Origin: a virus
IMG/VR virus record: IMGVR_UViG_3300032116_000624
Span: 1 to 37,027 of that record
Direction: 5' to 3' (one strand)
DNA: 37,027 nucleotides
The notes below the pieces were generated by a model. The model made no database searches, was not told the DNA's origin, and saw only the letters and a list, made by a program, of their open reading frames with translations. Below are positions 8,567 through 32,115 of the stretch, one piece after another; position 1 is the first letter of the stretch; each line of letters opens with the position of its first letter. A program made the position numbers and the translations under genes.

Positions 8567-9370
8567 ATGAAGTATCCATACAAAAAGTTGGTGTTGCCTA
8601 AAGAAGTGGAAAAAGTAGGCAACGGCAAGTTGACGCCAAAAATGCTCAAGAAGGTCAAGACTGGCGGAATCATGTGGACTGAGGCTGCTGACGCATTCAA
8701 CCTTATGTATGACGCAGCATTGGCTGCTGGGTTCAAGCTTCGCAACGTAGGTGACTTTAGGCCTTTTGAAGGTCAATTGGCCATGTTTAAGGACCGCTAT
8801 AGCGAGAAAGACCTTGGCAGAAAGCCACAGGTTACCCGTAAGTACGAAGGCAAAACCTGGTACCTAAAGCCCGGCAAAGCCCCAAGCTCGACACCCGGCA
8901 ACTCAAACCACGGATTTGGACTAGCGATTGACCTTGGCTATGAAGCTAAGGGTGCACTTACATCAATGGGTGGTAAATGCTTAGAGTGGATGTGCGAAAA
9001 CGCTCCCAAGTACGGTTTCTACCTACAGGGCGACGACCCTAAGTCTCCAGAATTCGAGGCTTGGCACTGGCAGTATGTATGTGGGGACACCCCTCCAGCC
9101 GCAGTGTCGGGTGGAGCCCCAGCCGCTGCAGCGCCGGCTCCTGCTGCCGCTCCAGCTGCTCCAGCCCCAGGTGCCCCAGCATTCCCCGGAGAACTTGATG
9201 TTGGCTCCAAAGGTGGAGCAGTAAAGCTCGTTCAGGCAAAAGTTGGCGCTAAGGAAGATGGAGATTTTGGACCCGGAACAGGTGCGAAAGTTTCTGCATG
9301 GCGCGAAGCTAATGGGTTAGGCAAGGGAACCAAGGTGGGACCAAAGACCTGGAAGGCGATGTTCGGCTGA
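8567..9370 (+). CDS. endolysin: M15 (VanY-like) peptidase plus peptidoglycan-binding domain
   Basis: A 267-residue lysin. Residues about 30-175 form an M15-type zinc peptidase with SNHGFGLAID (H115, D122) and EAWHWQY (H167), the metal ligands of D,D- or L,D-carboxypeptidases/endopeptidases that cut peptidoglycan cross-links. An Ala/Pro linker (180-210) leads to a PG_binding_1 domain (DVGSKGGAVKLVQAKVGAKEDGDFGPGTGAKV...). I chose the ATG at 8567 because GAGG lies 6 nt upstream. An in-frame ATG at 8525, seven bases after a TAAAAT, would add 14 Arg-rich residues. There is no signal peptide, so release through a holin is expected; holin-like genes follow. Confidence 0.9.
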   Translation: MKYPYKKLVLPKEVEKVGNGKLTPKMLKKVKTGGIMWTEAADAFNLMYDAALAAGFKLRNVGDFRPFEGQLAMFKDRYSEKDLGRKPQVTRKYEGKTWYLKPGKAPSSTPGNSNHGFGLAIDLGYEAKGALTSMGGKCLEWMCENAPKYGFYLQGDDPKSPEFEAWHWQYVCGDTPPAAVSGGAPAAAAPAPAAAPAAPAPGAPAFPGELDVGSKGGAVKLVQAKVGAKEDGDFGPGTGAKVSAWREANGLGKGTKVGPKTWKAMFG

Positions 9371-12769: not shown

Positions 12770-13414
12770 ATGACCACCATAATAGGAATACAAGGGGACG
12801 GATATGCCCTAATGGTAGGAGACTCACGTATCTCTGATATAGGGAGAGACGGTGAGATTCTTTCTACCAGTACTTTGGGTGGTGGTGTTAACAAGATTGC
12901 CAATACGAAGCAGTTCCTACTTGGTGCTGCTGGGGACTTACGAGCAATAAATCTGTTGACTCATGCTTTTGTTCCACCACCGCCACCGGTGGGTACCGGG
13001 AAGAAGCTAGACGCCTTCATGACCCTAAAGTTCATACCCGAACTACGCTCATGCTTTGATGAACACGGATATTCCTTACCCGAAAGGGACTCAAGCCAAC
13101 ATGTAGCCGAACACGGTTCAACCATCATGGTTGCCGTAAACGGGATTCTGTACATCGTGGACAGTGACTATTCATGGATTATCGACTCATCTGGCCTGTT
13201 TGCCATAGGTAGTGGGGCACAGTATGCCCTAGGAGCCTTACAGGTATTGGTGAATGGCAAGAAGCTAGAACTGCAGCAGGCGAAGAGGGTAGCCCTAAAG
13301 GCTATTGCTATTGCTGCGAAGTATGACCCTGGAACTGGGGCTCCATACTCAACCCATATACAAGAACCTACCACCAAGCCGAAAGGTCAAAGTGGAACTA
13401 GAAGTACCCGATGA
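12770..13414 (+). CDS. HslV/proteasome beta-like Ntn hydrolase
   Basis: This 214-residue protein begins MTTIIGIQGDGYALMVGDSR. Removal of Met would expose Thr2, the place of the catalytic Thr1 of HslV and 20S beta subunits. D18 then matches Asp17, and K42 in GVNKIANTKQFLLGAAGD matches Lys33 after an eight-residue insertion. FAIGSGAQYALGAL matches the HslV GSG(G)xYA helix. All catalytic positions are therefore present. The C-terminus is extended and basic. AAAGG precedes the ATG, and its 3' end overlaps WhiB by 23 nt. It may be a small self-compartmentalising peptidase or a decoy of the host proteasome; no unfoldase partner is adjacent. Confidence 0.75.
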   Translation: MTTIIGIQGDGYALMVGDSRISDIGRDGEILSTSTLGGGVNKIANTKQFLLGAAGDLRAINLLTHAFVPPPPPVGTGKKLDAFMTLKFIPELRSCFDEHGYSLPERDSSQHVAEHGSTIMVAVNGILYIVDSDYSWIIDSSGLFAIGSGAQYALGALQVLVNGKKLELQQAKRVALKAIAIAAKYDPGTGAPYSTHIQEPTTKPKGQSGTRSTR

Positions 13415-13736
13415 AAATGATGGATTAGAAGTACCTGAGCCTCCATCAGAACGTGATATACAAGATAACGGGTGGATGTTCTACGCAAACTGTAAGGGAC
13501 GTACGAACGAGATGTTCCCGAAGGGGCATAAGGACATCAGCTACATACCTGGGGCAAGAGCCTTGTGTGACGGGTGCTTCGTGAGAACGCAGTGCCTTAA
13601 CTATGCGCTGGAGTTCCCTGTGGCGGATATGCACGGCATATGGGCAGGGATGACTAGCAGGCAGCTAGCAGCGGAACAGAGGCGTAGGGGTGTAGGAGCA
13701 ATCAGGCCGACGCTAAGTCAAATGTGGGGCGATTGA
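13392..13736 (+). CDS. WhiB-family iron-sulfur transcription regulator
   Basis: A 114-residue protein with four Cys at 34, 59, 62 and 68 (CX24CX2CX5C), the WhiB [4Fe-4S] signature, followed by the GIWAGM turn (81-86) and a basic C-terminal segment (RQLAAEQRRRGVG) that contacts DNA. WhiB proteins are confined to actinobacteria and their phages and act with the host primary sigma factor. I chose the GTG at 13392 because AAAGG lies five bases upstream; a start at 13305 would lie deep within the preceding gene. It is a prime candidate for redirecting host RNA polymerase to phage promoters. Confidence 0.92.
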   Translation: MELEVPDENDGLEVPEPPSERDIQDNGWMFYANCKGRTNEMFPKGHKDISYIPGARALCDGCFVRTQCLNYALEFPVADMHGIWAGMTSRQLAAEQRRRGVGAIRPTLSQMWGD

Positions 13737-16309: not shown

Positions 16310-16388
16310 GGTCCGGGATGGTAGCACCATTTTTGTCAACTGCAGGTGAATAGCGCTACGACGGCCAAAGCGAATATCACTGTGGCCA

Positions 16389-16700
16389 TTATTGTTCGCC
16401 TGCCAGGCTGCGGATGTACTGCAGAATTTCATGACGTTTCTCGTCTGGCTGGTCTGCGTAGACCTTGAACATGATGCTGACGAAGCTCTTAAGTACCTCG
16501 AGCATGCAATCGTTCAGCAGCTGGCCAGCTTCATCGATGAGGTCTTCAATCTCGTCGACGGTCCCAGCAGCGATAATTTCACGACGCCCAGGGTGGTCGA
16601 GGTGCACGCAGCGGATTTGGGGGCTCAGTGGGAACCCCTTCTTTTCCAGGGAGTCCCAGATATAGAGGTCTTCATATGGGTTGGGCATGTCATCAAACAT
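16389..16700 (-). CDS. hypothetical protein
   Basis: A 103-residue acidic protein, helical after residue 45 (VDEIEDLIDEAGQLLNDCMLEVLKSFVSIMFKVYA). AAAGGA precedes the ATG at a good distance. No family is recognised. Confidence 0.65.
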   Translation of the reverse strand: MFDDMPNPYEDLYIWDSLEKKGFPLSPQIRCVHLDHPGRREIIAAGTVDEIEDLIDEAGQLLNDCMLEVLKSFVSIMFKVYADQPDEKRHEILQYIRSLAGEQ

Positions 16701-20288: not shown

Positions 20289-21824
20289 CTAGCGATAGGT
20301 GAGTTCGTGACCTGTCACGCTCTCGTACACACCTTTCATGTGTGACGGAACGATGGACTTCACTTTCTCGCCCTTTGACATGGCTTTCAGCATTGTGACT
20401 GCCTGCTCAGGTGTCTCACAGGTGTAGATACCGTGACGCTTGATGAGTGCCACGCACTCCATCACTAAGTCCTCACCCCAACTGTCACCCTTGCCTGTGA
20501 CCCCACCATCGGTGACCCAAATGACAGGGGAAGTATTGCGCTGACGCTTTCCGATAGCCCAACGCAAGGCAGGTGCGTCCACTCCGTTGCCACCGTTCGG
20601 TGACGGAAGTTCTTTCACGCACTTGCCCTTGTTGGCGACCACATACAGGTTCGGGCGACTACTGCGCCCACCTGAATACTGCGCCACGAGTGCTGACGGT
20701 GCGCTCAACACCATCTCCATCACTTCATCGTGTTCCAGCGACATAGAACCACTCGTGTCAATGAGTACCACGCCACCTGCGCCCTTCACAGTACGGTCAA
20801 AGATACGGCGTTCAGGGTCGGTGAGTAGGCGAGACATACGGCGTGGGTTACGCCCTGTCTGCGATGAGACACGCTTGCGTCCGATAGCACCCATCACATT
20901 ACGCTCTAACGCTGGTGTGGAGATACGCAGTTCTTCCCACAAGGTCGCACGACCTTTCTTCGGGATAGTTCCACGACCCCAACGGTCATGTGTGAAGTTC
21001 TCGCTTGCCTTCTCTGTCGGAGACTTGCCATCTTCATCTTTGACTTCGCCTGACGGTGCGCCTTCGCCCTCTTTGCCTTCGCCCTCTTTTTGTGGCTGTG
21101 GCTTTCCTGTGGGGTTGTCACACAATGCGCCGACTTGTTCCTCTACCCACTTTGCGTAGTTCTCCACATAGCCAAATCCTGACAGGTGGAGACGAGAGTG
21201 AGTGGCGTGGAGTGATGGAGTAGAACGCTGGTTGTCCATTACAGAGCGAAAGTAGTTCTCGCCTGTGTGGGAAATCGTCTCCAACAGTTTCACCCACGAT
21301 GGCTCGTGCTGTGCGACACCACGCAAGTATTGTTCGTATCCTGCCGTGCCACGAAACGCAATAGCGTCCATCACGCACGAGAGAAAGTCGCCCACCTCTG
21401 CTGTGCGCTTTCCTGCGAGATACTCGCTTCCGTCTGAAAGGTGAGTTGTTGGCTCAAATCCTGCGTAAGAACACAGGACATTGACACGCAGTTCCTCGCA
21501 CACTACGAGCGTAGGTGCTTTGGCGTAGCCACGAGCCACCCACTTCTCAAACTGCTTCGCCGTAGGTGACACCTTTGCGTGTGTCATCTCGTGCGCTCGT
21601 ATCACGCGAGAATGTTCGGTGTCGTACATCGGCACACGCATCTCACGCAAGGTGACTTCCGTTGCTGGTTCACCACGCTTGGGTTGGACATTGACAATGT
21701 TCCAACGCTTCTCTGCGTCTTTCGCTGTGTTGTCTCCACGAGACAACATCTCAGGCTCAGGGTACTGTGGCGTAGTACCCTGAGCGATGTTCGCCGTAAT
21801 CGGCGTTCCGTTTGACTTGCTCAC
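20289..21824 (-). CDS. VWA-domain protein with an HEXXH metallopeptidase-like motif
   Basis: This 511-residue protein has HEMTH at 78-82 followed by CEELRVN at 109-115, the H-E-x-x-H plus downstream Glu layout of metallopeptidases (compare DUF2201-type proteins, which join a putative peptidase domain to a VWA-like domain). A charged low-complexity linker (240-280) separates it from a C-terminal VWA domain with the MIDAS motif DTSGSMS (356-362) and WVTDGG. It starts with GTG 6 nt after the MoxR-like ATPase stop. MoxR/VWA pairs act as chaperone-like machines for protein or metal-centre maturation; in a phage the client is unknown. Confidence 0.75.
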   Translation of the reverse strand: MSKSNGTPITANIAQGTTPQYPEPEMLSRGDNTAKDAEKRWNIVNVQPKRGEPATEVTLREMRVPMYDTEHSRVIRAHEMTHAKVSPTAKQFEKWVARGYAKAPTLVVCEELRVNVLCSYAGFEPTTHLSDGSEYLAGKRTAEVGDFLSCVMDAIAFRGTAGYEQYLRGVAQHEPSWVKLLETISHTGENYFRSVMDNQRSTPSLHATHSRLHLSGFGYVENYAKWVEEQVGALCDNPTGKPQPQKEGEGKEGEGAPSGEVKDEDGKSPTEKASENFTHDRWGRGTIPKKGRATLWEELRISTPALERNVMGAIGRKRVSSQTGRNPRRMSRLLTDPERRIFDRTVKGAGGVVLIDTSGSMSLEHDEVMEMVLSAPSALVAQYSGGRSSRPNLYVVANKGKCVKELPSPNGGNGVDAPALRWAIGKRQRNTSPVIWVTDGGVTGKGDSWGEDLVMECVALIKRHGIYTCETPEQAVTMLKAMSKGEKVKSIVPSHMKGVYESVTGHELTYR

Positions 21825-21830
21825 AATGCC

Positions 21831-22571
21831 CTACTTCTGTGGGGTCATTGTGTTGATAGCGATAGCGTCCACCACGCTCTTAGCACGGTCACGGAAAACC
21901 ATTTGCGCCGCCTTTTTTGTTCCGAGTGCTGTACGCAGTTGGTCAAAGGCGTAGAACGCACGGAGAGAGATACGGCGTTCGCCTGCGTCTGCCATCTGAC
22001 GGGCGTAGTCACGCAAGTCCTCGCTCAGACGGGCGAGTGCTGACGGGTGTGGCTCGTTGATACGGATACAGACGGGGAAACGGTCTTTGAGTGCCATTGG
22101 TAGGTCGCTCATCTGCTCAATGTTCGTGGTCATCACCACGCTGAAACCTGCGTTGGGGCGCAATACCTGACGGGTCTGTGGGTGTTCCCACTTTGCGCTT
22201 TCAGGGCTGTCTGTCATCGCCAGCAAGGTTGCGAACACATCGCCACCTGCCTTGTCAATCTCGTCAATAACGAGACGACCACCTGTGTTGCCATCGCCCT
22301 TCCACGCACGGATAGCAGAGCCTTCCAGCCACGACCACGAGCCGTGGTCATTTGGTTGCCAGCAACCTGTTACATCTGCGTTGGTCATGTCATCGGTACA
22401 GATGAGACGGTGTGCGCCTGCTTCGGTGTTGCCGTATGTCAAGCCTGCGAATGTCTTGCCTGTTCCTGGCACTCCAAACAGAATGAGACGGTCTATGCCT
22501 GCTTCCAGCGCATCATTGACTTCTTGCCAGCAGGCAGGAAGTGTGGTTGTTGTGTCTTGGACACTTGTCAT
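21831..22571 (-). CDS. MoxR-type AAA+ ATPase
   Basis: A 246-residue protein from ATG 22571, with a ribosome site (GGGGA). Walker A is GVPGTGKT (33-40), Walker B is VIDEID (101-106), sensor 1 VVMTTN and an arginine-finger region ALKDRFP follow. The GVPGTGKT...DEIDK pattern and the short C-terminal lid fit MoxR/CbbQ/CobS-like ATPases. These usually work with a VWA protein, which is the next gene. Together they probably form one ATP-driven complex. Confidence 0.85.
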   Translation of the reverse strand: MTSVQDTTTTLPACWQEVNDALEAGIDRLILFGVPGTGKTFAGLTYGNTEAGAHRLICTDDMTNADVTGCWQPNDHGSWSWLEGSAIRAWKGDGNTGGRLVIDEIDKAGGDVFATLLAMTDSPESAKWEHPQTRQVLRPNAGFSVVMTTNIEQMSDLPMALKDRFPVCIRINEPHPSALARLSEDLRDYARQMADAGERRISLRAFYAFDQLRTALGTKKAAQMVFRDRAKSVVDAIAINTMTPQK

Positions 22572-22608
22572 TGGTTTCCCCTTTCGTGGGAGTTTGTTGT
22601 GGGTGTGA

Positions 22609-22637
22609 AGTGTAGCCACATTGTTAGTGGCACACAA
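22609..22637 (-). promoter_or_regulatory. promoter of the MoxR/VWA operon
   Basis: On the minus strand TTGTGT, a 17-bp spacer and TACACT, 37 nt upstream of the MoxR-like start. No CRP-like dyad lies directly before it. Confidence 0.55.
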
Positions 22638-25632: not shown

Positions 25633-25715
25633 AGAACAGGTGTTCGGTGAGACACATTTGGTGCGACTGTCTCGTGAGACTAACTGGGGGAAAGTGTCTC
25701 AGACTGGGAGAAGGG

Positions 25716-25819: not shown

Positions 25820-25848
25820 TTGCGTTGCTTGCCGACAGCCACTAAGGT
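25820..25848 (+). promoter_or_regulatory. promoter of a leaderless tiny gene
   Basis: TTGCGT, 17-bp spacer, TAAGGT, then six bases to the ATG at 25855. No CRP-like box lies before it. Confidence 0.5.
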
Positions 25849-25854
25849 ATGCCC

Positions 25855-25914
25855 ATGTCATTAGTCTCTATTGTTGTAGTCATCGCACTCATCGCATTGT
25901 TCGCAAGTGGCTAA
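25855..25914 (+). CDS. tiny hydrophobic peptide (family member 1)
   Basis: MSLVSIVVVIALIALFASG, 19 residues, one membrane-spanning segment with no charge. It starts six bases after a -10 box, so it is probably leaderless; an in-frame ATG at 25849 would add MP. Its stop overlaps a CRP-like box of the next promoter. Sequence pattern and size match five other peptides in the array. Confidence 0.55.
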   Translation: MSLVSIVVVIALIALFASG

Positions 25915-25960
25915 TGTCACACAATAACTATTTGACAAGTGGCTACTAACTTTGTAGTCT
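25907..25960 (+). promoter_or_regulatory. CRP-like box and promoter for the gene at 25990
   Basis: GTGGCTAATGTCAC (25907-25920) is the reverse orientation of the box; TTGACA (25932-25937), 17-bp spacer, TAGTCT (25955-25960) follow. CAAGTGGCTA occurs twice here and once near 18826. Confidence 0.55.
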
Positions 25961-25989
25961 TAGATTCTCAACTCACAAAAGGGGGAATC

Positions 25990-26346
25990 ATGACTGATTC
26001 TGTCATTGAGTGGGAAGAGGTGAGCAACACTTCAGACGAAGTGGAGTGGGACTTTGCGACAGACTTGTTCGCTGAGGTTGCCAACACGCTCATTGCCCAT
26101 AATGAGGAACTTCACGAAGGCGACACTTGGTGGCGCATTGAGGGATTCCCATTGTGGAGTGGTGGGCTTGACGGTATTTTCCACGCCGATACGCCGATGA
26201 AGTTGTTGGAAAGTATTACCGTTCGTTCGGAATGGTCATTGCGCTACACGCTTGACCCCGAAACAATGGTGCTTACTTGTCACCTCTCTCACCACGATGC
26301 AAGCGGAACTTTTACGGTGAAGGCAATGCCTAATCCAGACCGCTAA
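25990..26346 (+). CDS. hypothetical acidic protein
   Basis: A 118-residue acidic protein from ATG 25990 (GGGGGAATC upstream). Trp-rich with strand-forming segments (WWRIEGFPLWSGGLDGIF, TVRSEWSLRYTLDPETMVLTCHLSHHD). It may be a beta-barrel or START-like fold but no family is recognised. It is a single-gene cassette. Confidence 0.65.
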   Translation: MTDSVIEWEEVSNTSDEVEWDFATDLFAEVANTLIAHNEELHEGDTWWRIEGFPLWSGGLDGIFHADTPMKLLESITVRSEWSLRYTLDPETMVLTCHLSHHDASGTFTVKAMPNPDR

Positions 26347-26368
26347 CAACTGAACAACACGGCGAACT

Positions 26369-26397
26369 GCCCGTCTCCGAAAGGGGGCGGGCTTTTT
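26369..26397 (+). terminator. rho-independent terminator
   Basis: GCCCGTCTCC-gaaa-GGGGGCGGGC is a 10-bp stem with a GAAA loop, followed by T5. The 26398-26562 stretch holds copy I and GC-rich non-coding sequence, no gene. Confidence 0.8.
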
Positions 26398-26424
26398 GCT
26401 TGCCCAACGACTGCCCGTGCGCCG

Positions 26425-26456
26425 TCTCCCGCCACCGTCGGAAGGTGCGAGCCCCG
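26425..26456 (+). repeat. TCTTCC/AGCCCCG repeat, copy I
   Basis: TCTCCCGCCACCGTC (one change) at 26425-26439 and AGCCCCG at 26450-26456. TGCGA and TCGCA flank the second block and could hold it in a loop. Confidence 0.75.
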
Positions 26457-26562
26457 GACGGTCGCATCGCAGCGCGGGGCTATCGGGCGCATCTGCGCCG
26501 TCGCCACTCAGTTTCGTCGCCACCTGCCAACTCGCCACCTGTCTGTCACCCCTGTCTCGCCT

Positions 26563-26605
26563 GTGACAAACGACACTTGACAAACTGTGTTATCGCCTGT
26601 ATCTT
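26563..26605 (+). promoter_or_regulatory. CRP-like box and promoter for the gene at 26649
   Basis: GTGACAAACGACAC (26563-26576), TTGACA (26577-26582), 17-bp spacer, TATCTT (26600-26605). It is among the cleanest copies. Confidence 0.75.
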
Positions 26606-26648
26606 CTACCTTGTAATACACACCAACTACCCATAGGGGGGTACACAA

Positions 26649-27224
26649 ATGGAAGAAGAACAGACACCATCTGAACTATTGGCTTCTGTAATCGCTCGCG
26701 CGATGGAAGTCAAGTACGAGATGTGCGTGGACAACAATGGAATGTGCGATACGCCACCTGTACTGCTCGGTGAACTACCGACAGGCGAAGGCTTCATCGC
26801 ACCCGACTACAACGATGGACACCCAACCGACACCTTGCCGTTGATGCTGTCAGCACTCGCTGAAACGATGATGGCACAGTTCTCATCGGTTCAATGGAAG
26901 TGGCTTGCGTATGTCGTAGAAGGCTACGCAAAGCCAACACACGAAGGGGTGGAGAGCCTGCCCGAAGATTGGAGCCGTGGAATGTACGAAGAAGAGTACA
27001 AGACGAACCCAACAAGCGATGTGCGTGAAGGGCTTATCGTGGGTCTGTATCCGTGGGAAGGACAAGCCATCGGAACAACCGTGTTCTATCGCTACAACGA
27101 CAAGGGCTTGCCTGTCTATGACGAGCCTGAGATGTTGGAAGGCGAGATGGAAGGGACTGTCGCAGACATCTTCAAGGCGTTCACGATGGCGTGTAAGACA
27201 ATCACCAACGCCAAGAACAACTAG
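26649..27224 (+). CDS. hypothetical protein
   Basis: A 191-residue acidic protein with helical and aromatic segments (LPLMLSALAETMMAQFSSVQWKWLAYVVEGYA, EGLIVGLYPWEGQAIGTTVFYRY). It ends in ITNAKNN, similar to the LLAKNN of the gene at 23661. No family is recognised. AGGGGGG precedes the ATG by nine bases. It is a single-gene cassette with its own promoter and terminator. Confidence 0.7.
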   Translation: MEEEQTPSELLASVIARAMEVKYEMCVDNNGMCDTPPVLLGELPTGEGFIAPDYNDGHPTDTLPLMLSALAETMMAQFSSVQWKWLAYVVEGYAKPTHEGVESLPEDWSRGMYEEEYKTNPTSDVREGLIVGLYPWEGQAIGTTVFYRYNDKGLPVYDEPEMLEGEMEGTVADIFKAFTMACKTITNAKNN

Positions 27225-27242
27225 ACCGTACCCCCTACGGAA

Positions 27243-27284
27243 GGGGGGTCGCCTGCCAAGTACGGTGGGCGACCCCCCTTTTTT
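27243..27284 (+). terminator. rho-independent terminator
   Basis: GGGGGGTCGCC and GGCGACCCCCC form an 11-bp stem with a 14-nt loop and are followed by T6. Confidence 0.8.
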
Positions 27285-27302
27285 CGTGTACCCAACCAGC
27301 CC

Positions 27303-27347
27303 TCTTCCACCACCGTCAAAGCAAACCCGTTGCGCTTAGCAGCCCCG
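27303..27347 (+). repeat. TCTTCC/AGCCCCG repeat, copy J (overlaps a promoter)
   Basis: TCTTCCACCACCGTC at 27303-27317 and AGCCCCG at 27341-27347. Here AGCCCCG lies inside the spacer of the promoter for the next gene, unlike the other copies. Confidence 0.8.
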
Positions 27348-27358
27348 CCCGGTATTAT
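27330..27358 (+). promoter_or_regulatory. promoter of a leaderless gene at 27366
   Basis: TTGCGC, 17-bp spacer, TATTAT, seven bases to ATG. No CRP-like box is present and no ribosome site precedes the ATG. Confidence 0.55.
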
Positions 27359-27365
27359 TTATGAG

Positions 27366-27587
27366 ATGTCGTACGTTCGCTATGTGTGTGAGTTCTGTAA
27401 TCACGAAGTCCAGCCAGGGCAAAGTGGAACAATGAAGTTGGTGTTGGCGTGGGTGCGTTCAGACAACAACACAGGAATAAAGGGTGTGAAGAACCAGCAC
27501 AAGTACGCTCATTCCATCTGTGTGGAAACAGAGACTAAGCGTGGTGGTAAGCGAGAAGGCTCAAACGGCGAGCAGACGCTGTTTTAG
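27366..27587 (+). CDS. small zinc-binding-like protein, probably leaderless
   Basis: A 73-residue protein (MSYVRYVCEFCNHEVQPGQS...KYAHSICVET). CxxC plus a later H...C give a possible zinc site. The tail is basic (KRGGKREGSNGEQ). It resembles small actinophage proteins that begin V.YVCE.C. Its 3' end overlaps the stop of a tiny gene on the other strand. Confidence 0.65.
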   Translation: MSYVRYVCEFCNHEVQPGQSGTMKLVLAWVRSDNNTGIKGVKNQHKYAHSICVETETKRGGKREGSNGEQTLF

Positions 27588-27634
27588 AGTGCGAACAGCA
27601 ACGCAATCGCAACGAGAACGATGATGGCAGTCAC
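27584..27634 (-). CDS. tiny hydrophobic peptide (family member 2)
   Basis: GTG-started VTAIIVLVAIALLFAL, 16 residues, all hydrophobic. The GTG overlaps the upstream stop (GTGA), so it is translated by coupling with the gene ending at 27631. It matches the family pattern [VM]TA.I....A..LL.A[LIV]. Confidence 0.6.
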   Translation of the reverse strand: MTAIIVLVAIALLFAL

Positions 27635-28020
27635 TTTGTATCCTTAGATACGAGCACCCAGCCACCTTTGCCGTCTCCGATGTAGGTCTCTTTGCCTTTC
27701 CAACCCCAAGCCCAGCGACAGCATGAAGGGTCAAGGGTACAGTCATCATTACTGTCAAAGTCAGCGTGATGAATGAAGTTCGGGTGACAGCCACCACGAA
27801 GTTTCTCTCCGAGCAACGGAAAAGCATCTAGAAGTTTGACAACGCAGTCGTGACACATACTGATAAAGCGACTTTCATCGCTACCAAGTAGGACGCCCAC
27901 ATTGTCGTCAAAGCCACCGTAGTAGCCGAAGTGGTCAATAGGCAAAGACCAGCCCCCGTCAGGAAGGCTGTCTTGTTGTGTGTTCGGTTGCTCTACACCA
28001 CAGGTATCGCAGGTAATCAT
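27631..28020 (-). CDS. Cys-rich hypothetical protein
   Basis: A 129-residue protein with an N-terminal CDTCG, an internal CHDC (about residue 56) and further Cys/His (CHPNFIHH, DPSCCRW) that could form a zinc site. The phrase SLPIDHFGYYGGFDDN occurs in other phage hypotheticals. Function unknown. It is third in a four-gene minus-strand operon and is coupled to the tiny hydrophobic peptide. Confidence 0.7.
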   Translation of the reverse strand: MITCDTCGVEQPNTQQDSLPDGGWSLPIDHFGYYGGFDDNVGVLLGSDESRFISMCHDCVVKLLDAFPLLGEKLRGGCHPNFIHHADFDSNDDCTLDPSCCRWAWGWKGKETYIGDGKGGWVLVSKDTK

Positions 28021-28028
28021 TGTGTCTT

Positions 28029-28232
28029 TCAGGGTTGGTAGATGTTGTACCCGTATGGGTCGTACAGAGTTGTCGTGGTCTCACACGGGTAGTGAAAATA
28101 CTCGCAGTCAGGGACGCCTTGTTTCTCATCTCCGATAGATGCGATAAGAAATAGAGTTGCGCCGATGAGAGTTGTCCAAAAGACAAACCTCACGAACGAA
28201 CGCACCTTGTAATAGATAGGTGGGTGGCTCAT
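28029..28232 (-). CDS. small membrane protein with CEYFHYPC motif (paralogue 1)
   Basis: A 67-residue protein with one membrane segment (FVRFVFWTTLIGATLFLIASIG) and an outer tail with PDCEYFHYPCETTTT and DPYG. The plus-strand gene at 31814 has the same plan: YY.VRS.VR..., IASI..., P[DE]CEYFHYPC..TT..DPY. The two Cys could form a disulfide. The start overlaps the upstream stop (ATGA) with GGAGAAGGA upstream. Function unknown. Confidence 0.7.
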   Translation of the reverse strand: MSHPPIYYKVRSFVRFVFWTTLIGATLFLIASIGDEKQGVPDCEYFHYPCETTTTLYDPYGYNIYQP

Positions 28233-28438
28233 TCCTTCTCCCAACTACGGAAGTATTCAGGGTCGCCGACCCAAAATGCGCCTTCACCATTTGCCTTGTT
28301 CAGCCATTCGTCAAGGTTGGCATGAAGGAAGGCACGGTACCCCTCGGTCACCTCATCTGTGTTGTGCTTACAGATGTCCGACTGAACATTGTCGCCATCG
28401 GCATTGGTGTAGATGATTTCTCCACAGAACTCTTTCAT
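28229..28438 (-). CDS. hypothetical protein, probably leaderless
   Basis: A 69-residue acidic protein (MKEFCGEIIYTNADGDNVQS...). No family is recognised. ATG 28438 is seven bases after a TACCAT -10, which fits a leaderless start. It heads the four-gene minus-strand cassette. Confidence 0.6.
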   Translation of the reverse strand: MKEFCGEIIYTNADGDNVQSDICKHNTDEVTEGYRAFLHANLDEWLNKANGEGAFWVGDPEYFRSWEKE

Positions 28439-28445
28439 GGGGTGA

Positions 28446-28488
28446 ATGGTACAGGTGTCAAGCACACATGACAAGTGGCAGTTGTCAC
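28446..28488 (-). promoter_or_regulatory. CRP-like box and promoter of the minus-strand cassette
   Basis: On the minus strand GTGACAACTGCCAC (28475-28488), TTGTCA (28469-28474), 17-bp spacer, TACCAT (28446-28451), then seven bases to ATG. Confidence 0.7.
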
Positions 28489-28545
28489 ATCGTTGAGAGA
28501 CAAGCAAGGGTGAGGTCGTCAAGACGGGGACACATCACGATGAGT

Positions 28546-28580
28546 TCTTCCACCACCGTCAAATCTCTCTGGGAGCCCCG
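28546..28580 (+). repeat. TCTTCC/AGCCCCG repeat, copy K
   Basis: TCTTCCACCACCGTC at 28546-28560 and AGCCCCG at 28574-28580. The CCCG continues into a GGCCGC-tg-CGGCC hairpin closed by CGGG and followed by ACTTCCGCCC, as after copy H. It lies between divergent promoters. The 28581-28696 stretch holds no gene. Confidence 0.8.
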
Positions 28581-28696
28581 ATGGGCCGCTGCGGCCGTCC
28601 GGGACTTCCGCCCGCACTCGTGCGCCTGCGCCCGTGCGCCCGTGGGAGTTTCTCGGCTCGGCTGTCGGGGTTGGCTCGGACTGCCTCGCCTGTCGT

Positions 28697-28739
28697 GTGA
28701 CAAACGCCACTTGTGTTAGTGCTGTGTTGCCTGTACCCT
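28697..28739 (+). promoter_or_regulatory. CRP-like box and promoter for the gene at 28761
   Basis: GTGACAAACGCCAC (28697-28710), TTGTGT (28711-28716), 17-bp spacer, TACCCT (28734-28739). Confidence 0.7.
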
Positions 28740-28760
28740 GTCAGGTGTAAGGGGGTGATT

Positions 28761-29123
28761 ATGAAAGCAACCAAAACAGACCTATCGCTTATGGCGTTAC
28801 TCTGCTCAGACCGTGAAGGTCGCCCGTGCGATACGGGCGAAGTCTTAGCCCAAGTGGGCAAGATGAACTTTCTCGCTGTGTGCGGTGGCAAGTGGGCGAA
28901 GGTTTACGATTCAGGCATGGAGACTGTCGGCGTGTTGATGCTCTGCGGAGAATCTCGCGCGGTGGAAGTCGTGCTAGACCCGTGGGATACCTACACAGTG
29001 CGCCGTGTGCGCCTTGTGACCCGTGGAGAACTGAAGGGTTCAATCGTTGTGGAGTCGCAAGTTTCAGATGTCTATTGTGACAACTTGAGCGAAGTCGTCT
29101 ATTCCGCTTCCTGCTGGAAGTAA
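28761..29123 (+). CDS. hypothetical protein
   Basis: A 120-residue protein from ATG 28761 (AAGGGGGTGATT upstream). A helical start (TKTDLSLMALLCSDREGRPCDTGEVLAQV) precedes beta segments (KMNFLAVCGGKWAKVY, YTVRRVRLVTRGELKGSIVVES). No family is recognised. It is a single-gene cassette. Confidence 0.65.
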   Translation: MKATKTDLSLMALLCSDREGRPCDTGEVLAQVGKMNFLAVCGGKWAKVYDSGMETVGVLMLCGESRAVEVVLDPWDTYTVRRVRLVTRGELKGSIVVESQVSDVYCDNLSEVVYSASCWK

Positions 29124-29145
29124 CCAACAACCAAAACAACCGAGC

Positions 29146-29185
29146 AAGCCCGCCGTGTGCCCCCCGCACGGCGGGCTTTGCTTTG
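29146..29185 (+). terminator. rho-independent terminator
   Basis: AGCCCGCCGTG and CACGGCGGGCT form an 11-bp stem, followed by TTGCTTTG. Beyond it, 29186-29599 has no gene and holds copy L, an extra AGCCCCG and a block shared with the next cassette. Confidence 0.7.
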
Positions 29186-29226
29186 CCCGTGTGCCTGTGA
29201 CCTTGACCCTTGCCCGTGGTGCGCCG

Positions 29227-29271
29227 TCTTCCGCCACCGTCAAAGTAAGTGAGATGGGGGCGAGAGCCCCG
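29227..29271 (+). repeat. TCTTCC/AGCCCCG repeat, copy L
   Basis: TCTTCCGCCACCGTC at 29227-29241 and AGCCCCG at 29265-29271. GATGGGGGC and GCCCCCATC flank AGCCCCG, a 9-bp stem that would present it in a loop. Confidence 0.8.
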
Positions 29272-29330
29272 CTACCCCGCCCCCATCAAGCTCAGCTCAG
29301 CTCGACGGGCACGCTCAGCTCGAGGATTTT

Positions 29331-29398
29331 CTGCGTTTGTTTTTTGAAAAAGTCACGCTGCGTGGTCAAAGTTTGTCAAAACTCACGGAGAGTGGTCA
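29331..29398 (+). repeat. non-coding block shared with 30087-30148
   Basis: TTTGTTTTTTG, CTGCGTGGTC and TCACGGAGAGTGG appear in the same order and similar spacing after copy M. Coding potential is absent in both copies. Confidence 0.55.
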
Positions 29399-29481
29399 TT
29401 TTTGCTCGACTTTACTTTTTAGTTCGAGAAAAAGCAAGCGAAGAGGGCCAACTTCCGGCTTTCTGGCCAGATGTCCCTGGC

Positions 29482-29488
29482 AGCCCCG
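29482..29488 (+). repeat. second AGCCCCG block of cassette L
   Basis: AGCCCCG followed by a CGGCCG-ca-CGGCCG stem and then TCCGGGACTTCTGCCC, a variant of the block after copies H and K. No TCTTCC core precedes it. Confidence 0.6.
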
Positions 29489-29599
29489 ATGCGGCCGCAC
29501 GGCCGTCCGGGACTTCTGCCCAGATGGCATCGCCAGACGGAGTTGCTCAGGTTGTCCATCGCTCTTGCTCGGTCAAGCCAAACTCGTGCTCGTCTCGGT

Positions 29600-29643
29600 G
29601 TGACACACGACACGTTGCGACTGTGGCGTACAGGGTGTAGTTT
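29600..29643 (+). promoter_or_regulatory. CRP-like box and promoter for the gene at 29666
   Basis: GTGACACACGACAC (29600-29613), TTGCGA (29615-29620), 17-bp spacer, TAGTTT (29638-29643). AAGGAGG follows as a strong ribosome site. Confidence 0.7.
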
Positions 29644-29665
29644 GCTATTACCTAAGGAGGGGTTT

Positions 29666-29878
29666 ATGCCGGAGTTCTATCCGGAAGAAACCAAAGTCCA
29701 AAAGTCAAAACGATTTGCTAAATCCCAAGGAAAGATAGTAAAAGCATTTAGTCACACAAAGTGTGGTAGGTGCGGAACCATCATTGGTGAAGGCGTTGAG
29801 TGTATTTGGCTCAATGGAAAAGGTTGCTTCCACAAGCAAGGCGAATGTCCAAAGAAAGAAGAACAACAAGAAGAATGA
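29666..29878 (+). CDS. small basic zinc-binding-like protein
   Basis: A 70-residue protein with CGRC, then VECIWLNGKGCFHKQGEC, a set of five Cys and one His typical of small zinc domains, and a basic start. The tail is EEQQEE. AAGGAGG seven bases before the ATG is near-perfect. The stop overlaps the next tiny gene start (ATGA). Confidence 0.7.
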   Translation: MPEFYPEETKVQKSKRFAKSQGKIVKAFSHTKCGRCGTIIGEGVECIWLNGKGCFHKQGECPKKEEQQEE

Positions 29879-29925
29879 CAGCGTTGATAGTTGCGCTGGC
29901 AGTTCTTTTATTGTTGGCAATCTGA
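29875..29925 (+). CDS. tiny hydrophobic peptide (family member 3)
   Basis: MTALIVALAVLLLLAI, 16 residues, one uncharged membrane segment. ATG overlaps the preceding stop (ATGA). It lies immediately before the cassette terminator. Confidence 0.65.
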   Translation: MTALIVALAVLLLLAI

Positions 29926-29930
29926 ACGAA

Positions 29931-29961
29931 AGCCCGTCACAGAAATGTGGCGGGTTTTTTT
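29931..29961 (+). terminator. rho-independent terminator
   Basis: CCCGTCAC and GTGGCGGG form a stem with a 6-nt loop (AGAAAT), followed by T7. The following 29962-30362 has no gene and holds copy M. Confidence 0.8.
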
Positions 29962-29968
29962 GTGCCCG

Positions 29969-30013
29969 TCTTCCACCACCGTCAATGTAAATGAGACTGG
30001 GTCATCAGCCCCG
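29969..30013 (+). repeat. TCTTCC/AGCCCCG repeat, copy M
   Basis: TCTTCCACCACCGTC at 29969-29983 and AGCCCCG at 30007-30013. ACTGGGT and ACCCAGT flank AGCCCCG, a 7-bp stem with different sequence from copy L in the same position. A second AGCCCCG lies at 30245-30251. Confidence 0.8.
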
Positions 30014-30086
30014 CTGCTAACCCAGTTGATGTCCAGCATCTGAGTTCCTCACGACGTACGACATCGGATTATCAACTTTGTTTTCT

Positions 30087-30148
30087 TTTGTTTTTTGGAA
30101 AACGCTCACTCTGCGTGGTCGGAAAGTCAAAAAGTTCACGGAAAGTGG
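30087..30148 (+). repeat. non-coding block shared with 29331-29398
   Basis: TTTGTTTTTTG, CTGCGTGGTC and TCACGGAAAGTGG repeat the order seen in the previous cassette. CAC...GTG in the last element can form a small hairpin. Confidence 0.55.
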
Positions 30149-30362
30149 CAAAAACGAAGCGAAAGTCAAGTTCTTTGGAGTTTTTTGCTTGGCGCAAGCC
30201 CCCGTCGCTCACCCGTCGTACGTGCGATGGGTTTTCCCCGCGGTAGCCCCGTTTACCCAGTGCGGGGAAACGGGACTGTTCCGTGGTTTCTGGCCCTGGA
30301 CGGCCCGGCGGCCCGGAAGTCGGACTGGCGCAGCGCAACTCGGACTGACCTGAGGCTCGGCT

Positions 30363-30406
30363 GTGACAAACGACACTTTGACATTTGCGCTTGACACCTG
30401 TAGCCT
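30363..30406 (+). promoter_or_regulatory. CRP-like box and promoter for the gene at 30427
   Basis: GTGACAAACGACAC (30363-30376), TTGACA (30378-30383), 17-bp spacer, TAGCCT (30401-30406), then a long GGGGGGG ribosome site. Confidence 0.75.
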
Positions 30407-30426
30407 GTAGGCAAGAAGGGGGGGAA

Positions 30427-30594
30427 ATGAAGTTTTATGCCAACATCACGCTCAACATAGATGAGTTTGATGCAGATAACGAAGAAAAAGCAAAAGAAAT
30501 AATAGATTCGTACATCACAAGCCTTGCAAACACTGAAGATGAAAGTCTTTCGTGGCAAGAAATGAACTACGAAGTGAAAGAAGCCACTGAATGA
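30427..30594 (+). CDS. small acidic hypothetical protein
   Basis: A 55-residue protein (MKFYANITLNIDEFDADNEE...). The strand-helix-strand pattern resembles small phage proteins of the type KFYANI.L.I..FDADN.E.A.E.I. Function unknown. The stop overlaps the next tiny gene (ATGA). Confidence 0.65.
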   Translation: MKFYANITLNIDEFDADNEEKAKEIIDSYITSLANTEDESLSWQEMNYEVKEATE

Positions 30595-30647
30595 GCATCG
30601 CCATTACGGCGTTTACTCTTTTTTTGTTGTTCTCCGCCGTGAACTAA
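30591..30647 (+). CDS. tiny hydrophobic peptide (family member 4)
   Basis: MSIAITAFTLFLLFSAVN, 18 residues, one membrane segment. ATG overlaps the preceding stop (ATGA). The terminator follows within five bases. Confidence 0.6.
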   Translation: MSIAITAFTLFLLFSAVN

Positions 30648-30651
30648 GAAC

Positions 30652-30684
30652 CGCCCGTCCCTGAAAGGGGGCGGGTTTTTCTTT
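30652..30684 (+). terminator. rho-independent terminator
   Basis: CCCGTCCC and GGGGGCGGG pair around TGAAA and are followed by T5CT4. Confidence 0.75.
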
Positions 30685-30690
30685 TCCCCG

Positions 30691-30738
30691 TCTTCCGCCA
30701 CCGTCGTAAAAGTGCCATCACGAAGGTCGTGAGCCCCG
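30691..30738 (+). repeat. TCTTCC/AGCCCCG repeat, copy N
   Basis: TCTTCCGCCACCGTC at 30691-30705 and AGCCCCG at 30732-30738. TCACGA-agg-TCGTGA lies between the two blocks as a small hairpin. Confidence 0.8.
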
Positions 30739-30808
30739 CTGATTTACCAGATGCTCGTGTCTGGTTCGCCAGACAAACCGTGAACTTCGGCGACTCCAAC
30801 TCGTGCCT

Positions 30809-30851
30809 GTGACAAACAACACTTGACACTCCTTGTGCTGTTCAGTACACT
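30809..30851 (+). promoter_or_regulatory. CRP-like box and promoter of a leaderless gene
   Basis: GTGACAAACAACAC (30809-30822) abuts TTGACA (30823-30828); 17-bp spacer, TACACT (30846-30851), then seven bases to the ATG at 30859. The dyad centre is about 43 bp before the expected transcript start, close to class II CRP geometry. Confidence 0.75.
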
Positions 30852-30858
30852 CGCCCGT

Positions 30859-31143
30859 ATGCAAATAATCACCACTATCAACGAACCGATACCTTTTATC
30901 GGAACGGTTGATGAAATGTTAGCCAACTACAACACTCACCTATGGTGGCAAGACCCCGAATCGTGGGAATCGGTATGTGACCGCTGCGCCTGTAAAGGTT
31001 GGCACAAGGCTGCCAAGTATCCGTGTGGGACAGAGCCACCTCGCCGTGATGTCGTTGTGTGGGTTGATGCAGAAGGTAATCAGCATCGCAACCACCCGAC
31101 CCTTGCTGCTTTGGGTATCGCTAGCGATGAGATTGTAGAGTGA
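30859..31143 (+). CDS. Cys-rich hypothetical protein, probably leaderless
   Basis: A 94-residue protein. SVCDRCACKGWHKAAKYPCGTEPPRR gives four Cys and a His in a zinc-like cluster, followed by a beta segment (DVVVWVDAEGNQHRN). It starts seven bases after a -10 box and lacks a ribosome site. The stop overlaps the next tiny gene (GTGA). No family is recognised. Confidence 0.65.
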   Translation: MQIITTINEPIPFIGTVDEMLANYNTHLWWQDPESWESVCDRCACKGWHKAAKYPCGTEPPRRDVVVWVDAEGNQHRNHPTLAALGIASDEIVE

Positions 31144-31190
31144 CCGCTGTCATTTTGACGGTTGCTGTTTTCTTGCTGCTTGCTGTCTAG
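31140..31190 (+). CDS. tiny hydrophobic peptide (family member 5)
   Basis: GTG-started VTAVILTVAVFLLLAV, 16 residues, all hydrophobic, nearly the same as members 2 and 3. The GTG overlaps the preceding stop (GTGA). Confidence 0.65.
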   Translation: MTAVILTVAVFLLLAV

Positions 31191-31204
31191 TAGATAATCC
31201 ACTT

Positions 31205-31235
31205 GCCGCCCTGCTTAGTCGTGGGGCGGCTTTGT
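31205..31235 (+). terminator. terminator-like hairpin
   Basis: GCCGCCC and GGGCGGC form a 7-bp stem with a 12-nt loop, followed by TTTGTGC. Beyond it, 31236-31748 contains no gene and holds copies O and P plus a long A/T hairpin. Confidence 0.6.
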
Positions 31236-31375
31236 GCTGCCCGTAATCGCCTCGCATCGCCGTCTCTCTGCCCGTCTCGGCGACTTGCGGCTTGATGGTG
31301 TCCCTAAATACCCTGCTTCCAACCTGAGCCTTTCTAGATGTCTAGCGTTGCTCAAAGTTGGAACATCTCAGCCCG

Positions 31376-31390
31376 TCTTCCGCCACCGTC
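31376..31390 (+). repeat. TCTTCC repeat, copy O
   Basis: TCTTCCGCCACCGTC. Here the second block is replaced by CGGGGCTC at 31409-31416, the complement of AGCCCCG. CAGATGGCATCG at 31460 is shared with cassette L. Confidence 0.75.
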
Positions 31391-31477
31391 AGTTTATTGC
31401 GGGTAGTCGCGGGGCTCTCGAGCGCCAGCCGCACGGGGAGTTGCACGGGCGGCAGACCTCAGATGGCATCGGCTTTC

Positions 31478-31523
31478 GGGCAGTTTTTCGGTTTTCTTAT
31501 TTTTTTAGAAACTGAAAAACCCG
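31478..31523. terminator. long A/T-flanked hairpin, possibly bidirectional terminator
   Basis: GTTTTTC-g-GTTTTC and GAAAC-t-GAAAAAC pair around TTATTTTTTTA, extended by GGG and CCC. No gene ends nearby, so its role is unclear. Confidence 0.4.
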
Positions 31524-31602
31524 AAATCCTTTATTTTGGCGACTTCACGAACTTGACTTTTGAGTTTTTCGTGTTATGTTGGCAAACTTTGCCACACCCC
31601 CT

Positions 31603-31624
31603 TCTTCCGCCCGCGTTAGCCCCG
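31603..31624 (+). repeat. degenerate TCTTCC/AGCCCCG repeat, copy P
   Basis: TCTTCCGCCCGCGTT directly followed by AGCCCCG (31618-31624). It retains both ends of the element with the middle shortened. Confidence 0.5.
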
Positions 31625-31748
31625 TAAAGCTCGAAGAGCTGCACGGGACTGTCAGTCTTCTGGACGACGGAGTTGTTCTTCGGCTTCGGCTTGTTGCTGG
31701 CTCGGCTTGGAACTTCGGAAGGCTTCGCAACTTTCTTTTCGGAAAGAC

Positions 31749-31777
31749 TTGACATCGTGCCTTGTTGCTTGTAAGGT
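31749..31777 (+). promoter_or_regulatory. promoter for the gene at 31814
   Basis: TTGACA, 17-bp spacer, TAAGGT. No CRP-like box precedes it, unlike most of the array. Confidence 0.6.
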
Positions 31778-31813
31778 ACAGGGTGGGTGGAGTGCCTAGC
31801 GAAAGGAAATGCT

Positions 31814-32011
31814 ATGTACTACTTCGTACGCTCGTGCGTGCGCTGGGGTTTACTAATGCTCACTCTTACTCTTGCTGTTTTTGGTTGTTCCAAACTCGCA
31901 AGCATAGATGAGACGGAAATACCTGAGTGCGAGTACTTTCACTATCCCTGCCCGTGGGATACGACAGTACCCGACCCTTATTTTGACCCAACAACAGAGA
32001 TAGGGGGGTGA
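31814..32011 (+). CDS. small membrane protein with CEYFHYPC motif (paralogue 2)
   Basis: A 65-residue protein (MYYFVRSCVRWGLLMLTLTL...). One membrane segment ends in FGCSKLASI, which also resembles a lipoprotein cleavage site (cysteine at residue 25). The outer tail has PECEYFHYPCPWDTT and DPYFD. It is a clear paralogue of the minus-strand gene at 28232, outside the usual distance for a tandem duplication. AAAGGA precedes the ATG. Confidence 0.7.
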   Translation: MYYFVRSCVRWGLLMLTLTLAVFGCSKLASIDETEIPECEYFHYPCPWDTTVPDPYFDPTTEIGG

Positions 32012-32012
32012 G

Positions 32013-32066
32013 ATGGTTGCCGTTGTGGTTGCTTTGACAGTTTTTGCTTTATTGTCGGTTGGATAA
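32013..32066 (+). CDS. tiny hydrophobic peptide (family member 6)
   Basis: MVAVVVALTVFALLSVG, 17 residues, one membrane segment. ATG is one base after the preceding stop (TGA-G-ATG). The terminator follows. Confidence 0.6.
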   Translation: MVAVVVALTVFALLSVG

Positions 32067-32079
32067 ATACCCGAACACG

Positions 32080-32115
32080 GGGGCGCATCGTTATTCGGTG
32101 CGCCCCTTTTGTTTT
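32080..32115 (+). terminator. rho-independent terminator
   Basis: GGGGCGCA and TGCGCCCC form an 8-bp stem with an 11-nt loop, followed by TTTTGTTTT. An isolated AGCCCCG lies at 32189-32195, without a TCTTCC core. Confidence 0.8.

Follow-up and report, generated by a model that had tools for sequence, protein, structure and literature searches.

The described peptides closest to the ones considered here are small and hydrophobic. IbsC, a peptide of 19 amino acids (aa), is reported to depolarise Escherichia coli and to remain toxic in a truncated form of 15 aa, provided that 10 or more residues are hydrophobic (PMC8309996), and its frameshifted forms are likewise described as toxic (PMC7192591). 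The Arp peptides, which stem from random libraries, are reported to lower the membrane potential; in Arp1, function is abolished by most substitutions that bring in a charge (PMC6550523). Here we describe a family of at least seven hydrophobic peptides encoded by a freshwater bacterial virus, in a stretch of 37,027 bases that is the complete IMG/VR phage record IMGVR_UViG_3300032116_000624 (the window). Most of them start at or beside the point where a small, unrelated gene (the partner, P1 to P6) stops, and evolution seems to preserve their membrane-inserting property rather than a specific sequence.

An initial annotation of this DNA had proposed six such frames at the ends of small-gene cassettes. 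All six are present, starting at 25855, 27634 (minus strand), 29875, 30591, 31140 and 32013, but the count was too low, as a seventh frame at 16389 (minus strand) had been overlooked (Table 1). The start modes that it had read are also found: an RTGA overlap (R, A or G) with the preceding stop at 27634, 29875, 30591 and 31140, and a start one base past the stop at 32013. So are the four terminator-like hairpins within 20 bases downstream of 29875, 30591, 31140 and 32013.

Are these frames maintained in other genomes? Relatives were anchored on the partner genes and not on the peptides, so that loss of a peptide could be detected. For P2, P4, P5 and P6, 38 loci were found; the 10 whose partners are 100% identical to those of the window were left out, and the hydrophobic frame is intact in all of the 28 examined, on 15 contigs (P2, 10 of 10, from 13 found; P4, 5 of 5, from 8; P5, 11 of 11, from 14; P6, 2 of 2, from 3). 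At four P2 loci the frame starts 8 nucleotides (nt) inside the partner; the script missed these, and they were found by eye and then confirmed by a rescan. P1 homologs of at least 71% identity carry the frame at 9 of 9 loci (four identical), as does a P1 homolog of the related record G004 that lies outside the list of 47 homologs, and broken frames, which the initial annotation had named as counter-evidence, were found at none of the 28 loci or the nine close P1 loci. The other 38 P1 homologs have the frame in two cases. Because 36 of 47 are without it and the close ones all have it, the association between peptide and partner is stable within the clade and not obligatory.

The differences among relatives bear the mark of coding sequence. 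Over 22 ortholog pairs in 14 groups, the ratio of non-synonymous to synonymous change is 0.47 as proportions (pN/pS) and 0.41 after Jukes–Cantor correction (dN/dS), so that the synonymous versus non-synonymous comparison proposed at the outset returned purifying selection. In the same pairs, codon positions 1, 2 and 3 hold 78, 18 and 89 differences; with the most different pair of each of the 14 groups, these numbers become 46, 11 and 54 (P = 8e-9 for the shortfall at position 2, relative to an expected share of one third). When the same substitutions are moved randomly within the frame, the joint probability that all 12 testable groups stay open, uncharged and hydrophobic is about 5e-6, single groups ranging from 0.05 to 0.92. 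Four groups (P3, P4c, P5c and 25855) were picked by hydrophobicity, which brings some bias into these selection tests, while the others were partner-anchored. That the peptides are protein-coding and under purifying selection is well supported at the level of sequence comparison.

The frames are also far more abundant than chance would have it. Uncharged frames of 14–21 aa with a Kyte–Doolittle hydropathy (KD) of at least 2.2 number seven in the window, compared with a mean of 0.135 and a maximum of 2 in 200 dinucleotide shuffles; between 24.9 and 32.3 kb there are six (mean 0.018 and maximum 1 in 500 shuffles), and five are joined to a gene end (-4 to +2), with none in 100 shuffles. The seven of this test are not the seven of the family: they include an unrelated antisense frame at 27512 (minus strand) and omit 30591, whose KD of 1.88 is under the cut. 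The antisense frame, MSVLVLVLHTLYSCVVV (27459–27512, minus strand), lies opposite the gene at 27368–27587, has a similar frame in the records G005 and G009, and is probably a shadow of that plus-strand gene.

With one fixed rule applied to controls, cassettes and non-cassette stretches alike, gene-end peptides number five in the 19 kb of the window between 14 and 33 kb, six in 25 kb of G004 cassette sequence, five in the entire G006 (29.6 kb) and five in the entire G007 (44 kb). None occurs in 165,201 bp of control phages (lambda, 50 kb of T4 and two Arthrobacter phage stretches) or outside the cassettes of the same phages, where three stretches were scanned (112,817, 96,004 and 18,127 bp); the peptide frames cluster in the small-gene region of the genome. 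The search of related phages for such frames that had been suggested thus succeeded in G004, G006 and G007 and yielded few in distant records: G013 has one gene-end candidate, G012 none within the part scanned, and a number of weak candidates in other records may have arisen by chance. That the peptides are neutral by-products, i.e., chance hydrophobic frames without function, would have a precedent in the AT-rich spacers that are said to yield hydrophobic microproteins readily (PMC11188072). Nevertheless, the local G+C content around the peptide cassettes is about 50–55%, the frames exceed the shuffles, are conserved and under purifying selection, and are absent from the scanned non-cassette parts of the same phages, all of which leaves this idea scarcely credible.

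A second question is whether the peptide or its partner is the common factor. Each peptide might anchor or regulate, as a membrane tether, the product of the gene directly upstream, and the geometry is suggestive: in 36 of 36 partner-anchored rows (the 28 loci above plus 8 P1 loci out of the 11 with a peptide, the other three being identical) the peptide start overlaps the partner stop or lies within 10 nt of it, and P2, P4 and P5 always have the peptide at the examined loci. The partners themselves, however, are six dissimilar proteins, five of them surveyed in relatives, and among those of the window BLAST gave only short matches at chance level (best E 0.046). The 25855 peptide and its orthologs are without a convincing partner, since the upstream frames found by script (50–96 aa) differ between lineages. 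In G006 and G007 an extra copy stands 35–36 nt past the partner with its own ribosome-binding (Shine–Dalgarno) site, GAGAGGAAA. At the P3 locus of G004, the peptide DNA is 75% identical to that of the P2-locus peptide of the window and 37% to that of the P3-locus peptide, apparently reflecting a switch of partner. Finally, peptide divergence is mostly decoupled from partner divergence, and 36 of 47 P1 homologs do without a peptide.

Likeness within a genome tells a similar story. In a comparison of 18 peptides from loci P1 to P5 of five lineages, which excluded the L054 variant and the additional G006 and G007 copies, mean identity is 0.434 within a genome, 0.318 at the same locus across lineages and 0.323 where neither is shared. 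Shuffling lineage labels within loci gives P <= 0.0005, and shuffling locus labels within lineages P = 0.48; the lineage result does not change if the first two or three residues are trimmed, and when any single lineage is dropped, the mean within a genome is still the highest (means only). The pattern is like concerted evolution among the copies within a genome. The peptide, and not the partner, seems to be the unit under selection, because sequence and partner are decoupled, paralogs are more alike, a partner has apparently been switched and the starts vary. The first interpretation of this DNA therefore fared unevenly: its statement that the peptide is the common factor is strongly supported by the unrelated partners, the partnerless 25855 group and the copy with its own Shine–Dalgarno site, and further by the apparent switch and by paralogs exceeding orthologs in likeness at P1 to P5, whereas the tether that it had offered is disfavoured by the multiple dissimilar partners, the partnerless group and the apparent switch, and must be called improbable.

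What is kept in the peptides is composition. Where P2 partners are 72–80% identical to that of the window, the peptides are 13–33% identical with their hydropathy kept (8 rows); P5 partners at 53–61% go with peptides at 25–33% (7 rows), and in the one close P2 relative (partner 89%) the peptide is 93% kept. Charge is absent from 34 of the 36 rows, and the other two, which are identical, carry one Glu. Lengths are 15–18 residues in these rows and 15–19 across relatives overall, and KD is mostly 2.0–3.2. Among the window copies, similarity ranges from clear to almost none (MTALIVALAVLLLLAI versus MSLVSIVVVIALIALFASG), and a comparison of 23 sequence clusters revealed no fixed pattern of residues (global P = 0.12). 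A small-xxx-small dimerisation motif, hinted at by the window copies, was likewise unsupported across these clusters.

The main rival to an effect of pooled peptides is a specific host target: each peptide would bind and block one host membrane protein (of transport, secretion or division), and lineage sequences would differ as the hosts differ. Single-helix microproteins that bind one membrane protein are described, e.g., MgtR with MgtA (PMC11188072), and the likeness of genome-mates at P1 to P5 is as expected with one common host target. Copies within the window that range to nearly unrelated, and a sequence constraint so loose that no pattern is fixed across clusters, stand against it, and we regard such a target as rather unlikely, if less so than the tether.

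The starts are varied. Relative to the partner stop, 24 of the 36 rows overlap (11 at -4, 9 at -1 and 4 at -8), one abuts it (0) and 11 lie at +1 to +10. The 24 have the stop/start overlap (ATGA, TGATG and similar) typical of termination-reinitiation pairs, and coupling is predicted for them; for gene pairs with an ATGA or TGATG overlap, translational coupling is reported in 13 of the 14 cases tested (PMC6728339). Across the family, a start is reached through a stop-codon overlap, a separate Shine–Dalgarno site or a putative leaderless promoter. The last applies to the 25855 group, where the window and four related loci show, by eye, a TTG-type -35 and a TAA..T -10 spaced by 17–18 nt; transcripts of this group would be leaderless or nearly so, because the putative -10 lies 6–8 nt before the ATG. 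The leaderless start proposed for 25855 in the initial annotation thus has a suitably placed promoter-like element, although one read by eye and not called by the scan that gave the 30591, 31140 and 32013 hairpins. A frameshift or readthrough fusion that adds a membrane tail to the partner was rejected, because with offsets of -8, -4, -1, 0, +1, +3, +8 and +10 the frame relation between partner and peptide is not kept.

A terminator-like hairpin was called 3' of 23 of the 36 partner-anchored peptides. Three further P4 rows (L128–L130) were missed by that rule; under a different rule, two of these peptide sequences are followed by a hairpin in L122 and L114. The position before a terminator, part of the original description, is therefore common but not universal, since no hairpin was called behind the 8 P1 and 2 P6 rows. 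Could the frame, then, be an RNA or positional element that merely places ribosomes near a terminator or supplies U-rich RNA? The 23 hairpins would fit; their absence behind the P1 and P6 rows would not, nor would the protection of second codon positions while first and third ones vary. Codon-position data give the U-rich element no support: T frequencies at positions 1, 2 and 3 are 0.23, 0.65 and 0.31 in a hydrophobicity-picked set, whose members inflate the second value, and the synonymous codons of the seven window peptides are not generally biased toward T: GTT for Val and TTG for Leu are over-represented, but TTT for Phe and CTT for Leu are under-represented. An RNA element is, on these grounds, very unlikely.

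As for the virus itself, the window is taken to be a fragment of a phage of more than 100 kb, because P1 and helicase proteins 100% identical to its own are encoded on contigs of 75 and 106 kb. In the phage record collection, its first 25 kb had no match by megablast and P1 had none either, and the 740 matches of its helicase are all below 60% identity. A WhiB protein is encoded at 13305–13736 (E 1.5e-11), and WhiB matches occur in 6 of 6 related records and in 1 of 14 control genomes (Corynebacterium, an actinobacterium). WhiB has been described as a key indicator of actinophages (PMC10202952), and its presence in the window and all six records points to an actinobacterial host. The sole relative from a helicase scan of genome contigs, L282 (RGFZ01000057.1), with a helicase 92% identical, belongs to an Oxalobacteraceae metagenome-assembled genome; because WhiB indicates actinobacterial hosts, it is probably a phage contig wrongly binned there. 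Phage_integrase and Recombinase each have no match in the six related records, which may be incomplete, and this suggests a virulent (lytic) lifestyle.

These data bear on two further roles. Phage holins are typically encoded in a lysis cassette beside the endolysin. In the window, a VanY-type endolysin candidate lies at 8525–9370, the nearest peptide at 16336 and the remainder beyond 25.8 kb, and the holin-like role once suggested is disfavoured by this distance and by the multiplicity of the peptides. The ibs genes are multi-copy, as the phage peptides are, which speaks for type I toxin–antitoxin systems in which each peptide is a toxin silenced by an antisense RNA; size and hydrophobicity also match those of IbsC (19 aa; PMC8309996). 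Yet the window had no Rfam match at the gathering score, in a search that a novel antisense RNA would escape, the peptides are mostly coupled to unrelated genes, and no role in prophage maintenance is evident because no integrase or recombinase was found in the six records. A type I toxin is accordingly a distinctly improbable identity for them.

How, then, could these peptides act? We tentatively favour, with somewhat less than even confidence, the view that they are multi-copy membrane-inserting microproteins of actinophages, acting as a pool that depolarises or otherwise perturbs the host membrane for takeover or superinfection exclusion. At 15–19 residues and nearly always uncharged, they would be long enough for one membrane-crossing helix, and their KD makes membrane insertion expected. 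For most copies, translation would proceed by termination-reinitiation where an unrelated small gene ends, at its stop codon or close by, and for a few from their own ribosome-binding site or a leaderless promoter; once released, the peptides would insert into the host inner membrane. The copies would form a common pool that acts in trans, given that length and composition persist through large changes in sequence and that the copies resemble their genome-mates at five loci. A bulk effect on the membrane is favoured because composition is kept, charge is avoided, sequence is loose and copies are many. By analogy with IbsC and Arp, the pool would most likely depolarise the membrane in part, or perturb it, during lytic infection, and this may serve takeover or the exclusion of superinfecting phages. 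Of the functions offered in the initial annotation, toxin-like membrane activity and superinfection exclusion are thus the two that may still apply.

Several points weigh against this proposal. A peptide so short ends before its N-terminus exits the ribosome, and insertion would have to be post-translational. The 36 of 47 P1 homologs without such a frame remain so on a wider rescan (-20 to +100 nt). A dN/dS of about 0.4 is only moderate, and hydrophobicity-picked members inflate second-position T content. The 18 peptides of the likeness test were chosen by us from five lineages, three of which (A, B and C) are not deeply independent, because their helicases are 91–92% identical. When the P6 and 25855 groups are added, a locus signal emerges (P = 0.016), because these two groups track their locus. 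In the same vein, the P6 peptide is 81% identical where its partner is 65%, and one P4 peptide 67% where its partner is 65%. The lack of a fixed motif fits a bulk effect and could equally mean weak constraint.

The pooled reading has a stronger form, possible but doubtful. In a composition-only system, selection would hold hydrophobicity, near-zero charge, length and perhaps total copy number, and sequence only to a small degree; the dose would be spread over operons as 3' riders and homogenised within each genome, and the pool would set the state of the host membrane. Such a system may have arisen more than once, because an unrelated phage group has RTGA-coupled peptides of the MTALLVA type (see below). 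Short, uncharged and hydrophobic peptides might also carry a signal between infected cells, on the model of the small pheromones of Gram-positive bacteria. Their sequence seems less constrained than a specific signal would require, in an analysis that included no search for exporters, importers or receptors, and we give this idea next to no weight.

Further peptides of this kind occur elsewhere. At distant loci, more uncharged peptides stand at gene ends or before hairpins, e.g., MSYAIICTIVFMAVLLS, MTFLVVFGLIGLLACL and MIYFVAVILAIAVTVI. A degenerate-pattern scan of viral contigs gave at least 122 matches; among the matches listed, 30 have a stop within 22 aa, and the phage of the window and its relatives account for many of these. 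The scan also brought up the unrelated group, which, with at least seven records (L183, L193, L196, L224, L236, L255 and L263), encodes RTGA-coupled peptides of 19 aa, of the MTALLVALAVALLLEVLSD or MTALLVA type, that follow a different gene of about 80 codons and carry acidic residues; they may be convergent with the window family. A scan with the L183 partner found three loci, with the peptide in all three, on contigs already in or near that group. Also among the matches listed, a 21-aa peptide of the VTAFLIALAFAVVLIRTRARS type occurs in L194, L235 and L279, and in two of these records it is coupled through RTGA to a frame of 49 aa.

Genes of 16 codons fall under the usual annotation limits, so that a multi-copy membrane-peptide system of phages in freshwater Actinobacteria would be largely invisible. 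In this family, a natural one, it appears to be composition rather than sequence that function follows. The arrangement also suggests a way in which phages may set the dose of membrane-active peptides, namely by placing them at the 3' ends of numerous small operons.

The features of the window are collected in Table 1. When ten cassette proteins were compared with PHROGs and Pfam, three weak PHROG matches resulted, all of unknown function, and no Pfam match above the curated cut-off. P5 and the product of 28029–28244 (minus strand) are small proteins that look paralogous, each with a hydrophobic segment and a CEYFHYPC motif. Two repeats accompany the cassettes. One, CTTCCRCCACCGTC, occupies 11 intergenic sites between 15429 and 31377, every one of them on the plus strand irrespective of gene direction, and in several copies is followed by AGCCCCG and CCGTCCGGGACTTCCGCCC; it is found in 12 of 15 related records, on one strand only in each. 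The other, TGTGACAAACGACACTTGACA-like, lies at 26561, 28696, 30361 and 30807 (plus strand) and at 25634 and 28489 (minus strand), overlapping or directly upstream of the putative -35 of cassette genes, and looks like a shared regulatory site. Elsewhere, the product of 12770–13414 (plus strand) matches the Pfam proteasome subunit family above cut-off (E 1.4e-7), which is unusual in a phage, and at 20289–22637 (minus strand) an AAA_5 ATPase (21831–22637) adjoins a protein of 511 aa for which Pfam gave no match at E <= 0.001.

Table 1. Peptide frames of the window with their partners and neighbouring elements
Feature	Coordinates	Strand	Remarks
Promoter-like TTGCGT-17 nt-TAAGGT	25820..25848	+	ends 6 nt before the 25855 ATG; by eye
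Peptide MSLVSIVVVIALIALFASG, 19 aa	25855..25914	+	no convincing partner; putative leaderless start
Peptide VTAIIVLVAIALLFAL, 16 aa	27584..27634	-	GTGA overlap with P1; stop overlaps stop of convergent gene
Partner P1, 129 aa	27631..28020	-	no Pfam or PHROG match at E <= 0.1
Partner P2, 70 aa, several Cys	29666..29878	+	no Pfam match above cut-off
Peptide MTALIVALAVLLLLAI, 16 aa	29875..29925	+	ATGA overlap with P2
Terminator-like hairpin, 3' of 29875 peptide	29930..29957	+	
Partner P3, 55 aa	30427..30594	+	no Pfam match above cut-off
Peptide MSIAITAFTLFLLFSAVN, 18 aa	30591..30647	+	ATGA overlap with P3
Terminator-like hairpin, 3' of 30591 peptide	30653..30676	+	
Partner P4, 94 aa	30859..31143	+	no Pfam match above cut-off
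Peptide VTAVILTVAVFLLLAV, 16 aa	31140..31190	+	GTGA overlap with P4
Terminator-like hairpin, 3' of 31140 peptide	31205..31230	+	
Partner P5, 65 aa	31814..32011	+	own hydrophobic segment and CEYFHYPC motif
Peptide MVAVVVALTVFALLSVG, 17 aa	32013..32066	+	1 nt past P5 stop; Shine–Dalgarno-like AGGGGGG upstream
Terminator-like hairpin, 3' of 32013 peptide	32079..32107	+	
Seventh peptide MATVIFALAVVALFTCS, 17 aa	16336..16389	-	TAATG overlap with P6
Partner P6, 103 aa	16389..16700	-	weak PHROG match, function unknown, E 0.013

No description of these peptides was found in a search of open-licence papers, and an earlier listing in a survey of phage small genes (Fremin et al. 2022) is possible. Their relation to known systems can nevertheless be drawn. 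The Entero67K microproteins, from intergenic sequence of Enterobacteriaceae, are described as frames of 15–70 codons, mainly hydrophobic and potentially transmembrane, up to 27% of them near neighbouring genes; they are bacterial, and their hydrophobicity is ascribed to AT-rich spacers (PMC11188072). The phage peptides, by contrast, are multi-copy, alike within a genome and set in sequence of about 50–55% G+C. To our knowledge, no conserved peptide gene belongs to the PeSL cassettes of T4-like phages. These cassettes are comparable as promoter and stem-loop elements said to mediate gene shuffling (PMC4503421), whereas in the phages considered here a peptide frame stands at many cassette ends.

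The Ibs–Sib system of E. coli is close in kind: its toxins are tiny hydrophobic peptides that tolerate extensive mutation and have a functional core of 15 aa (PMC8309996, PMC7192591). The size and hydrophobicity of that family (18–19 aa, a single helix) recur here in peptides of 15–19 aa with a predicted helix, but the phage peptides are mostly coupled to unrelated genes and nearly always uncharged, and the window had no Sib-like Rfam match. With Arp1–3, the likeness lies in hydrophobicity (a grand average of hydropathy of at least 2.5 for Arp), Arp being reported to insert in the membrane and lower its potential (PMC6550523). The Arp peptides, however, have 22–25 aa and a hydrophilic C-terminus and come from synthetic random libraries, whereas the phage peptides, at 15–19 aa, are natural and evolving.

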